A stretch of DNA of 64,000 nucleotides from Clostridia bacterium (GTDB lineage Bacteria > Bacillota > Clostridia > Acetivibrionales > DSM-27016), in contig JAOAIJ010000009.1 of assembly GCA_026414765.1 (NCBI GenBank), forward strand, positions 186,001 through 250,000, in the 5' to 3' direction. Positions 51,295 to 55,879 of the stretch are shown here, one piece after another. The first letter of the stretch is position 1, and every line of letters begins with the position of its first letter. Position numbers and translations under genes: made by a program. The notes under the pieces are model-generated. The model was not told where the DNA came from, made no database searches, and was given only the letters and a program-made list of their open reading frames with translations.

Positions 51295-53268
51295 TTACCG
51301 TTCTGCATTACCGTTTTCTATAATACTGAAAAGGCTAATACTATTCCCTTTATCACTCTTCTTCACTTTTTCTATTGTCCTGTTAATATATGAATACAGC
51401 TTTTCCTGAAATACCTCTTCAGTTGTCTCCCTGTTTTCGATCATCACAAGGCCCTTTTCCCAGCTTGCAGTCAATGAGGGATTCAGTAGTTCTTTCGCTG
51501 TACGGCGGACCAGCTCCACAATAGCTTCGCCCTTTAAGGTAGGGGTTACTACCTGTGTTTTATTCTGTATTTTTATATATCCTATTTCCTTCAGCTTCTT
51601 GATGATACCCGAACGTGTCGCAGAAGTCCCTATGCCACAGGTTTTTATTTGCTCTCTCAATTCTTCATTTTCTATAAACTTTCCTGCTTTCTCCATGGTT
51701 ATTATAAGAGAACCGTCGGTATATCTCGGAGGCGGCTTCGTTTCCTTCTCTTCCAGATCAAAGCCTTTGACAATGCTCTTTTCATTCTTTACTAATTTGT
51801 GTATAGGCGAATCTGTTATTTCTTCTTCCCCTTTTTGGACATTTACTTCGTATACCTCTTTCCATCCCGCTTCTTTTAAAGTTTTTGCATTTGATATAAA
51901 GACTTCGCCGTTAATATGAGTCTCTGCTTTAACTGTATTGTATTCTGCAGGCGGATAAAAAATAGCCAGAAATCTCTTTACTATCAGGTTATATACATTC
52001 CGTGCATCAGAATCGAAGCTCGATAAATCGGCTGTTACATACGTCGGAATAATGGCATAGTGATCAGTAACCTTTCCATTATCTACATACCGCTTGGTTG
52101 TTTTATTTATTTTGAGTTCGCCGAACTCCTTAATCCTCTGTACATGCTCCTTGAATCCCTGATTCCTGAACAGACCGTTTAGTACCTTTGGTACTTCCGC
52201 TAAGACATCAGTAGAAATAACCCTGCTGTCAGTTCTGGGATAGGAAATCAATTTCTTCTCATAAAGACTCTGAGCAATCTCCAGGGTCTTATCCACCGGA
52301 ATTTTATACTTCTTGTTTGCTTCTGACTGAAGCTCTGCAAGATTAAAGAGCAGAGGCGGCTGCTCCTGTTTTACTTTTACATCAACCTTCTTAATAATGG
52401 CTTCATTCCCTTTGAGCTTTTCTATCAACTCCTGAGCTTCTTCCTTGCCGATGTATTTATCATTTTCATCCGTATCCTCAACTTCCGGTTTGGTACTTTT
52501 TTTCTTAGGCTGCCACCGGCCTTTATACTCTATATTACTGTCCTGGGAAAGAAAAGTCCCCAATACACCATAGTGGATTTTAGGCACAAAATTCCTGATT
52601 TCCTGCTCCCTGTCCACAACAAGTCCCAATACGCAGGTCATAACCCTTCCGATGGCAATAACCGAAGGTTTGCTCTCCTTTATAAAAGCAGAGAGACTTC
52701 TACCAAACTTGCAGGTATAAATCCTGCTGAAGTTCATGCCGAAAAGCCAATCCTCCTTGGCCCGGCTGTAAGCAGCCCTTGAAAGGGAGTCGTACTCACT
52801 GATATCTTTTGCAGTATCTATTCCCTTTTTAATAGCTTCTTCAGTCTGCGAGGAAATCCATACCCTTTTGGCTGGTTTACTACATCCGCTCTGACTATAT
52901 ACAAGCCTGAAAATGTATTCACCTTCACGGCCACTATCGGTGCATGAGTAAACCATATCCACATCATTTCTGCACAAAAGCCTGCTTATTACCTCAAACT
53001 GTCTTCCTATACCTTTATCATCAATAACTATATATTTATATTCACTCGGAATTATGGGAAGATGCTCAACCTTCCATTCCTTGTAGATAGGATCGTAAGC
53101 ATCCGGGTAAGCCATTGTTACGAGATGTCCGAAGCACCATGTAACGATTATGCTCTCCGACTCAGCAAACCCTTTCGCTCTATCGTTTTTAGAAATCTGC
53201 AAGCCCAATACACCTGCAAAACTTGCTGCTACAGACGGCTTCTCTGTGATAAATAGTTTTTTTCCCAA
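51295..53268 (-). CDS. topB: DNA topoisomerase III (type IA)
   Basis: 657 residues starting at a TTG (53268) with AAAGGGG upstream. N-terminal Toprim domain (FITEKPSVAASFAGVLG, later CTDSGREGEYIF) and the topoisomerase IA core with active-site Tyr343 in YPRTDSRV. It relaxes and decatenates DNA through a 5'-phosphotyrosine link. In the Toprim acidic motif the usual DxD reads DSG, as in a clostridial branch of these enzymes. There are no C-terminal zinc fingers. Single gene. Confidence 0.92.
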   Translation of the reverse strand: MGKKLFITEKPSVAASFAGVLGLQISKNDRAKGFAESESIIVTWCFGHLVTMAYPDAYDPIYKEWKVEHLPIIPSEYKYIVIDDKGIGRQFEVISRLLCRNDVDMVYSCTDSGREGEYIFRLVYSQSGCSKPAKRVWISSQTEEAIKKGIDTAKDISEYDSLSRAAYSRAKEDWLFGMNFSRIYTCKFGRSLSAFIKESKPSVIAIGRVMTCVLGLVVDREQEIRNFVPKIHYGVLGTFLSQDSNIEYKGRWQPKKKSTKPEVEDTDENDKYIGKEEAQELIEKLKGNEAIIKKVDVKVKQEQPPLLFNLAELQSEANKKYKIPVDKTLEIAQSLYEKKLISYPRTDSRVISTDVLAEVPKVLNGLFRNQGFKEHVQRIKEFGELKINKTTKRYVDNGKVTDHYAIIPTYVTADLSSFDSDARNVYNLIVKRFLAIFYPPAEYNTVKAETHINGEVFISNAKTLKEAGWKEVYEVNVQKGEEEITDSPIHKLVKNEKSIVKGFDLEEKETKPPPRYTDGSLIITMEKAGKFIENEELREQIKTCGIGTSATRSGIIKKLKEIGYIKIQNKTQVVTPTLKGEAIVELVRRTAKELLNPSLTASWEKGLVMIENRETTEEVFQEKLYSYINRTIEKVKKSDKGNSISLFSIIENGNAER

Positions 53269-53574: not shown

Positions 53575-54462
53575 ATGTATACATTTTCCAGACTTAACGA
53601 AGTATATAAGGCATCTCATGAATTAATCATTGATGGTTCTTCAAAAATAGTTTTCTTCAGTGACTGTCACAGAGGTGATAACAGTAAGGCAGACAACTTT
53701 GCGCCCAACCGCAGCATCTACCTGTCTGCATTAGAATACTACTATACCCACGGATTTACCTATGTCGAAATCGGTGACGGTGACGAGCTGTGGGAAAACA
53801 AACACTTTTCATCAATTATTCAAGCACATCTGGATGTATACCTTTTGATGCAGAAATTCTATAACAAAGGCAGGCTTTATATGGTGTGGGGAAATCACGA
53901 TATTATGAAGAAGAACAGAAATTTTGTGAGGAAGAACCTGTATGAGTATTATAATCCTGTAACGCAAAAGTTCGATCCGCTTTTGGACGGTATAAGCATC
54001 TATGAAGGGTTGATACTGCGATACAAGGATAAGCCGAATAGTATTTTTGTAGTTCATGGCCATCAAGGTGATTTGCTCAATGATTTTCTGTGGCCTGTGG
54101 CCTGCTTTCTTGTAAGATATATATGGAGATATCTGGAGTCTTTAGGCTTTATTAACCCTGTCAGTCCGGCAAGGAGCACATCCAGAATGTATTCAATTGA
54201 GAACAATATAGTTGATTGGGTTAAAGCTAATAATCAAATGCTTATTGCAGGGCATACACACAATCCTGCCTTTGCCACACCCGGTTCACCGCCCTATTTC
54301 AACTCCGGGAGCTGTGTAAGCCGTGGATATATAACCTGTATTGAGGTACAAAACGGAGAAATATCACTATCGAAGTGGAGCAGAAAGCCTGACCGCAGCT
54401 GCCCTTTAAAAATTTCACACGAGGTTATTGCAGGCCCTGTAAAAGTTGAAGATTTCTCTTAG
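53575..54462 (+). CDS. Calcineurin-like metallophosphoesterase (LpxH-like)
   Basis: 295 residues from the ATG at 53575 (GAGAGAGG upstream; a GTG at 53563 is within that site). The metal-site motifs are in order: SDCHRGDN, GDGDELWEN, GNHD, VVHGHQGD and AGHTHNPAF. This set fits the UDP-2,3-diacylglucosamine pyrophosphatase-like branch, but a Gram-positive has no lipid A, so the substrate is another phosphodiester or pyrophosphate. Soluble, single gene. Confidence 0.87.
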   Translation: MYTFSRLNEVYKASHELIIDGSSKIVFFSDCHRGDNSKADNFAPNRSIYLSALEYYYTHGFTYVEIGDGDELWENKHFSSIIQAHLDVYLLMQKFYNKGRLYMVWGNHDIMKKNRNFVRKNLYEYYNPVTQKFDPLLDGISIYEGLILRYKDKPNSIFVVHGHQGDLLNDFLWPVACFLVRYIWRYLESLGFINPVSPARSTSRMYSIENNIVDWVKANNQMLIAGHTHNPAFATPGSPPYFNSGSCVSRGYITCIEVQNGEISLSKWSRKPDRSCPLKISHEVIAGPVKVEDFS

Positions 54463-55114
54463 CTGCGGCGATTTTCAGATATAAATCCCTTTGATATATT
54501 ACAGAATTTTACATGATATTTTTTCAAATACTGATTATATTTTACTCGTATTAAAAATCTTATAGCAACCATAATAATATGCGTAGGGTTCATAATAGTC
54601 GAGCCAAGGTTGTTATAGGGTCATATACGGCTTTATAACAGCCGGCCAAAGGCTAATGCCGGGTCATGTCAGGTTATAAGCACGGCTCGGTATTAGCCGG
54701 AGGGAAGAATGCTATATGTCCTGTAAGGCTGTGCTGCAGTAACAATGAAGGGGAATGTTGTCACTGTATGTTTTCATCTTACAAACGATATTCCCTTAAG
54801 TTATTGCAGTATGGTCAAAAGGGATGTATGGTATTCGAGCTGAGATTATCAACGTCACGCGTGATGTTTCAGGGTTCCGCAGGCATATGGAGTTCTTGTC
54901 CGGATTCTATTGTTTTATCAGTAGTTTTCGTTTATTTAGTCCATATGCTGGAGGTTTTCTGCAGTCTCATGATTGCAGCAGGCTTCTAAGGTATCCTTGG
55001 TAGTCGAGCAAAGGTTGGTGCAGGTTCCGTAATGCTTGCAGGCAGTCGGAAGATTGTTTGCAGGTATGCAGGGATTTGTATCAGCTGTAGCGAAGACTGT
55101 TATGGGCTCTACTT
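54463..55114 (+). other. 652-base gene-free stretch with imperfect repeats and hairpins
   Basis: The first 130 bases are AT-rich. From about 54597 the composition changes, becoming G-rich and C-poor on the plus strand. Related units recur: AGTCGAGCCAAGGTTGTTA (near 54598), AGCCGGCCAAAGGCTAATG (near 54641) and AGTCGAGCAAAGGTTGGTG (near 55002), with weaker ones near 54694 and 55043. Two hairpins are good: GGTTGTTATA (54609-54618) with TATAACAGCC (54635-54644), and 13 bp joining 54652-54664 with 54687-54699, using G-U pairs. A 107-codon frame at 54666 has no ribosome binding site. It may be a structured RNA or a decayed repeat element; unresolved. Confidence 0.5.
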
Positions 55115-55879
55115 TTATTTATAGTATCCACTTGCTTCGCTATACAGGCTATAACCTATCTCAAACTGGTTGTTATCCTGGTCCTCCCACTGCTTTGCGA
55201 AAGATATAACCCCAGTGCCTTCCATGATTTTCCTGATTTCATAATAGTCACTTCCAGTATCCTTATATGATACCGTATATACTTTAAGGTTGTTTTCCTG
55301 CCCTATATCCGTTATCTCACACTCGACTACATATTTTTTCCCGGATTTATCAGTCAGGTTTTGAATCCATTTATTGTTTTTATTTAACGGGGCTCTTATA
55401 AGCTCAATAGTATCAAATATTGAATCCATCATTGCCTGTTCGTTCTTGATCTGGTACAAAACTCCTTCCCTCACAGTATACTTTATTCCCAGGTTGTAGT
55501 AACCCGGCTCTTTACCCGCTTCACCTCCCGATACATCCTCTACGGTACCCTCTGTAATATATATAGTTTCCTTTGCTGATTTGTTAATGCTTTTTAAAAC
55601 CATTGTATGCCCATACTCAGCGAAACCGTTATATATCCATTTATAATTTTCCTTGTCCGGAAGCAAAGCAGTAAGCTGGCGGTTTATTTGCAGGTATTTC
55701 TGTTTGCTGTCCTTATCTGTTTTAATTTTAGTAATCTCATTATTCTTTACTTCCTTATTCTGTTGTCCGGGTGTGTTATTTTGCCTATACTTATTCCATT
55801 CGGTGGCTGAAAACAGTCCGACAGCAAGTACCAGAATTATCGCTAGGAGCATGGAAGTGTATAATTTGCGTCTGTTCAT
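55115..55879 (-). CDS. Membrane-anchored or secreted protein of unknown function
   Basis: 254 residues from the ATG at 55879 (GAGGAT upstream). One N-terminal hydrophobic segment (LYTSMLLAIILVLAVGLFSATEW) followed by a Lys/Asn-rich linker and an outer domain of about 200 residues. No lipobox. The domain has beta-strand-like stretches (YKWIYNGFAEYGHTMVL, KYTVREGVLYQI, NNQFEIGYSLYSEASGYYK). I do not recognise a family. Single gene between the repeat region and a spacer holding an isolated terminator. Confidence 0.7.
   Translation of the reverse strand: MNRRKLYTSMLLAIILVLAVGLFSATEWNKYRQNNTPGQQNKEVKNNEITKIKTDKDSKQKYLQINRQLTALLPDKENYKWIYNGFAEYGHTMVLKSINKSAKETIYITEGTVEDVSGGEAGKEPGYYNLGIKYTVREGVLYQIKNEQAMMDSIFDTIELIRAPLNKNNKWIQNLTDKSGKKYVVECEITDIGQENNLKVYTVSYKDTGSDYYEIRKIMEGTGVISFAKQWEDQDNNQFEIGYSLYSEASGYYK

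Follow-up and report, generated by a model that had tools for sequence, protein, structure and literature searches.

Several large or sporulation-associated structured RNAs have been described in bacteria. OLE RNA (ornate, large, extremophilic) has an elaborate conserved fold, is found in hosts among Gram-positive bacteria, has a length of 577 nt for the C. acetobutylicum RNA and remains of unclear biochemical function; like GOLLD and ROOL, it forms RNA-only multimers (PMC12286853). The raiA motif (ModT RNA) is a structured RNA widely conserved in the Bacillota, with a reported role in growth and sporulation-related traits (PMC11706538). Sporulation-specific non-coding RNAs are also known in Bacillus, and include Bvs196 (294 nt; PMC9147052) and, most likely, CsfG. 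Finally, the smtA motif ("Soda Lake RNA") is a large (>350 nt) unexplained RNA listed as a high-ranking candidate (PMC11109978). Here we analyze a gene-free locus within a 64,000-nucleotide stretch of Clostridia DNA (hereafter the window; GCA_026414765.1, contig JAOAIJ010000009.1, positions 186,001 to 250,000) and compare it with these systems.

The locus lies between a metallophosphatase-like gene (PF00149) ending at 54462, itself preceded by a bacterial topoisomerase-type gene (PF01131 with Toprim; 51298-53268, minus strand), and a convergent gene without Pfam match ending at 55115. An earlier note had reported repeated units, two hairpins of 10 and 13 bp and no convincing coding frame at 54597-55060, and had proposed a structured RNA or, alternatively, the remains of a mobile repeat. 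Our analysis confirms the observation and supports the structured RNA interpretation, while placing the gene at about 54583-55116 on the + strand, so that the coordinates in the note are a little too short at both ends; the note did not identify the promoter-like sequence, the six-way architecture or the spread reported below. The repeated unit is present as TAGTCGAGCCAAGGTT at 54596, TATTCGAGCTGAGATT at 54832 and TAGTCGAGCAAAGGTT at 55001, with a weaker copy at 55083. The hairpins are longer and more numerous than the note described, with the minimum-energy fold presenting eight uninterrupted helices of 13-17 bp, with many G-U pairs, inside one closed structure of 526 nt (54585-55110). Folding of positions 54580-55110 yielded -248.9 kcal/mol, against -153.4 (sd 6.2) for 100 dinucleotide shuffles, none of them as low (z -15.35), whereas the minus strand gave z -2.37, indicating that the + strand carries the RNA. 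The two ORFs tested, 54666-54989 and 54824-55003, are open in 1 of 43 and 2 of 43 homologues, respectively, and lengths are not multiples of three in more than half of the copies, arguing against a protein-coding gene. No tRNA or tmRNA was detected in the window.

Searches for relatives revealed a broad distribution of this RNA. The genome of origin (4.56 Mb, 53 contigs) holds two further full-length copies, and the three copies are 61-65% alike where they align (50-63% with gaps counted). Matches were identified in 26 of 60 neighbouring genomes, own genome included here and in the samples below, and 43 full-length copies were extracted from 25 genomes, leaving out six partial ones; two further loci held no match. 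An exact degenerate pattern, which fits 28 of these 43 copies, found 27 stretches in named genome records, including Acetivibrio straminisolvens, A. mesophilus, many Clostridia MAGs and, unexpectedly, Desulfosporosinus fructosivorans, whose copy is full length (nhmmer E 3.1e-36) and folds with z -11.08. The presumed A. thermocellus genome carries a second, partial or strongly diverged copy (positions 922072-922398 of its contig C1) besides the full one at 3574636. A covariance model of the 3' domain (155 positions) then found matches in 44 of 391 genomes of the class and in 156 of 398 genomes of the phylum (112 of 267 genera). In several genomes this model matches twice within one RNA, with an offset of about 80-95 nt, which hints that neighbouring arms are internal duplicates of one module. 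In the last round of a profile search, 77 of 80 loci taken from these hits, some of them places represented twice, held the whole RNA. These loci came from the best-scoring hits, plus 20 that we chose, and the resulting copies therefore lean to good matches; the main counts below were obtained on 108 distinct copies, but the groups of 50 and 67 copies used for some of the flanking-sequence comparisons, and the 67 divergent loci used for neighbour analysis, still include places seen before.

The conservation of the fold is strongly supported by covariation. On 44 copies, a structure of 146 pairs has 98.4% of 6403 cells paired, with 97 pairs showing changes on both sides; 0 of 500 shuffles reach any of the five measures used, and structures slid by 1-3 columns fall to 36-42% paired. 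On the 108 distinct copies (355-568 nt between the P1 ends, median 418.5; identity to the window copy 50-80%), 15148 of 15492 cells (97.8%) are paired and 113 of 144 pairs have at least three doubly changed copies. The structure was derived from these same sequences and the alignment includes the best-scoring hits, but the size of the covariation leaves little room for doubt about a conserved RNA fold.

The predicted architecture is a six-way junction in which six arms (P1, H2, H3, H4, H5 and H6) meet. P1 is formed by the two ends of the RNA (54585-54600 pairing with 55095-55110), with 16 pairs, 10 of them with changes on both sides, and 99.6% of cells paired on 44 copies. It is followed by arm H2 (54608-54643), a 15-bp hairpin with 98.6% of cells paired; arm H3 (54651-54698), a hairpin of 15 conserved pairs with 97.7% paired; and arm H4 (54707-54836), comprising a lower helix of 16 bp, an internal loop, an upper helix of 15 bp (99.7% paired) and an extra apical hairpin in this copy. 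Arm H5 (54844-55005) has a lower helix of 8 pairs followed, after a variable insert in this copy, by 7 more, and includes hairpin H5b (54951-54986), with 95.5-99.1% of cells paired across its helices. Arm H6 (55013-55086) consists of a lower helix of 16 bp, an internal loop and an upper helix of 14-16 bp capped by a GNRA loop (97.7 and 99.0% paired). The lower helices of P1, H2, H3, H4 and H6 have 15-16 pairs. GNRA loops cap H5b in 89 and H6 in 96 of 108 copies, although the H5b loop of the window copy is not GNRA.

The six linkers between arms have a similar form, roughly [GA]-[2-nt core]-[nAA], and the repeats described in the earlier note correspond to these linkers with the helix strands beside them. 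In the window they are L12 (54601-54607, GAGCCAA), L23 (54644-54650, GGCCAAA), L34 (54699-54706, GGAGGGAA), L45 (54837-54843, GAGCUGA; consensus GAGCUAA), L56 (55006-55012, GAGCAAA) and L61 (55087-55094, GTAGCGAA). With one flanking base included on each side, the commonest forms among 108 copies are CGAGCCAAG (40) and UGAGCCAAG (33) for L12, CGGCCAAAG (72) for L23, CGGCGGGCAG (37) and CGGAGGGAAG (21) for L34, CGAGCUAAG (85) for L45, CGAGCAAAG (53) for L56 and UGUAGCGUAG (25) for L61, the most variable linker. The cores can pair two by two (L61 with L12, L23 with L34 and L45 with L56), which would give a three-times-two pseudo-symmetry. The L23-L34 pairing, between CC of L23 and GG of L34, is supported by covariation (first pair CG 81, UA 21, GC 4 of 108), but the other two are mostly invariant, mismatched in some copies and not supported by covariation. 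An alternative pairing of the GC dinucleotides around H6 (L56 with L61), called by RNAalifold, competes with the symmetric one that we prefer, and the counts do not separate them.

The helices contain a three-pair wobble motif, 5'-GNU/5'-GNU (G.U, N-N', U.G), which is kept in P1, H2, H3, upper H4 and upper H6 in 84, 91, 91, 103 and 102 of 108 copies, respectively, and in lower H6 in 59 of 108. In H2, H3, H4 and H6 the middle pair changes in a compensating way, whereas in P1 it is nearly invariant (GC in 107 of 108). Of all 144 pairs, 17 are one kind of wobble in at least 85% of copies, while the median pair is wobble in 9%. This suggests selection for the wobbles themselves, possibly for helix packing or minor-groove contacts, and there may be a resemblance to the UAA/GAN internal loop and the along-groove packing motif.

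The upstream sequence is conserved up to the start of P1, and outlines a promoter-like element resembling those of the forespore sigma factors F and G. In 44 copies, a GNATW-like box lies 17 nt (32 of 44) or 18 nt (8 of 44) before a CANAATA-like box, whose end is mostly 8-10 nt before the GGG of P1; in the window these correspond to GTATT (54548-54552, +) and CATAATA (54570-54576, +), and the 5' end of the RNA was inferred from them. Using strict forms of what we take to be the B. subtilis consensus, with spacing ranges that we set after seeing the first copies, 11 of 108 upstream regions match sigma F (100 dinucleotide shuffles: mean 0.03, max 1) and 15 of 108 match sigma G (mean 0.33, max 3), whereas sigma E (1), K (0), H (0), B (0) and A (3) are at chance. 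A relaxed joint pattern, made after seeing the data, hits 57 of 108 (shuffle mean 3.5), and the window copy fits only this relaxed form. Saujet et al. (PMC3789822) report a G conserved just upstream of the -10 for sigma F and an A downstream for sigma G, and a G three bases before the -10 box is found in about 80% of the copies. A promoter scan also listed four + strand sigma-A sites at 9 of 12 upstream of the window copy, but sigma-A-like sites are at chance across copies. As a positive control, a weight matrix from the RNA promoters scored the upstream regions of 30 SASP genes (of 46 matches in nine of these genomes) above those of 173 control ORFs (p 6.7e-5; 6 of 30 against 1 of 173 above 12). 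The strict patterns, however, do not separate these sets (1 of 30 against 4 of 173), so they are insensitive or the organisms differ, and in the own genome the bare box pair is not enriched over its reversed control (10 sites, two of them at the other copies of this RNA, against 11). At the opposite end, a U-rich tail (55111-55122) overlaps the end of the convergent gene and could be a termination site; the sequence just after P1 is T-rich across copies, but no terminator consensus site was found here by the scanner.

The RNA is also strongly associated with genomes encoding the spore formation protein SpoIVA (PF09547), which was found in 336 of the 398 phylum genomes. Of the 156 RNA carriers, 151 have SpoIVA, against 185 of 242 non-carriers (odds ratio 9.3, Fisher p 4.7e-9, without correction for relatedness). 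Three of the five exceptions are at most 80% complete, and the other two are 90 and 97% complete. Within the class, SpoIVA was found in 42 of 43 tested carriers and in 28 of 37 tested non-carriers (of 347). In the three sampled genomes of one family (genome:contig:positions G472:C6:228638-230332, G720:C1:956695-958419 and G781:C27:50949-52656), the 3' domain of the RNA lies about 0.8-0.9 kb from spoIVA on the same contig, pointing towards it. Nonetheless, 185 of the 336 SpoIVA-positive genomes show no match to the RNA, which is hence an accessory of sporulation at most, and not part of its core.

The genomic context of the RNA is not conserved. The downstream ORF is on the opposite strand in 45 of 67 divergent loci (same strand in 21, unknown in one), and the largest groups of alike neighbour proteins hold 9 of 43 and 7 of 67 loci. 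The former group derives from one locus shared by nine genomes, with an alike protein next upstream in nine, a second in eight and one downstream in seven, which is not the locus of the window copy. On inspection, without a target search, we see no long conserved single-stranded stretch of the kind used for target pairing, and conserved unpaired bases are mainly purine-rich linkers and internal loops.

Overall, these results support a stand-alone gene encoding a large structured non-coding RNA. The RNA itself is near certain, and its transcription in the forespore by sigma F and/or sigma G is likely, although it rests on sequence evidence alone. We infer that six helical arms of similar length radiate from one junction, joined by six alike linkers that resemble A-rich internal-loop motifs, and that the conserved wobble pairs and GNRA loops serve as helix-helix and loop-helix contact sites, so that the RNA packs into a compact body, alone, as a multimer or with proteins. 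It would then work in trans in the developing or dormant spore, as a scaffold or shield for a spore component, rather than by pairing to messages or by controlling a neighbouring gene. We consider this explanation, taken as a whole, to be probable. A bolder and rather doubtful possibility is that this is an old, phylum-wide structural RNA of the endospore, made only in the forespore, built as a pseudo-symmetric six-armed (three times two) wheel from six copies of one helix-linker module, and assembling through its wobble-pair and GNRA contact sites into an RNA body (cage or scaffold) packed into the spore core.

Among the alternatives, the one that best survives, although we deem it unlikely, is that the RNA is real but made in growing cells, with both its link to spoIVA and the appearance of its promoter reflecting shared ancestry. 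The lack of correction for relatedness, the limited number of copies fitting the strict forespore patterns, the absence of box-pair enrichment in the own genome and the five carriers without a SpoIVA match are compatible with this view, but sigma-A-like sites are at chance (3 of 108, shuffle mean 3.26) while forespore-like ones far exceed it, and SASP upstream regions score above controls with the same matrix. A ribozyme in which the conserved junction forms an active site, for instance one processing RNA during sporulation, is less likely still, although it could hold together with forespore expression. The large complex fold and the strongly conserved unpaired purine-rich linkers are reminiscent of large ribozymes, but the RNA does not match any Rfam family, ribozymes included, and the sixfold repetition of the conserved elements arguably suits a scaffold better than one active site.

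A non-autonomous mobile element, or its remains, is not supported and appears very improbable. Several copies per genome are observed at differing neighbours, with up to seven full-length copies in one genome, three of them 95-98% identical, so recent duplication occurs. However, the own-genome copies are diverged, one locus is shared by copies of nine genomes, whole copies with conserved ends and promoter persist, with pairs kept by compensating changes, across a phylum, and no match was found in phage and plasmid collections queried with one sequence or in viral contigs scanned with an exact pattern that fits 28 of 43 known copies. A cis-acting leader or riboswitch, suggested only by the 21 same-strand loci, is refuted for the window copy by the convergent downstream gene and rejected by the orientation and lack of conservation of neighbours; the two RNA ends also pair with each other ahead of a U-rich tail.

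With regard to known RNAs, no Rfam 15 family matched at gathering score in the window, in 13 related loci or over the RNA in 20 divergent loci, where the only three hits (rRNA, c-di-GMP-I and tRNA) lie outside the RNA, and permissive scans returned only below-threshold matches. No description of this RNA was found in the literature surveyed (including PMC6429828, PMC8632094 and PMC7438776), although a listing in a supplementary table is possible. An RNA of ribozyme-like size and conservation in about 40% of sampled genomes of a major bacterial phylum, absent from Rfam 15, would be one of the larger gaps in the catalogue of bacterial RNAs; its forespore-type promoter points to a developmental role and, if the forespore and assembly readings hold, it would be a new kind of spore component. 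We regard it as a new family among the large ornate bacterial RNAs, given its several hundred nucleotides, many helices, own gene and high conservation. The smtA motif is likewise large and unexplained, but is found only in Thioalkalivibrio, beside smtA. CsfG and Bvs196-like RNAs likely share a sporulation-specific character, but are much shorter and simpler, and no homology to them emerged from the searches made here, which did not compare them directly. The raiA motif shares with this RNA a wide conservation in the Bacillota, but its Rfam family does not match here. ROOL and GOLLD, which appear to be largely phage or plasmid borne, also differ in this respect, since no phage, plasmid or viral match was found in the searches described above. 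OLE RNA resembles the RNA described here in its size, its elaborate conserved fold, its Gram-positive hosts and its unclear biochemical function, and probably differs from it in lacking a forespore-like promoter and a six-linker junction. The RNA matches none of the OLE, GOLLD and ROOL families, but it resembles them in size and elaboration and, given that they form RNA-only multimers (PMC12286853), the same is plausible here.
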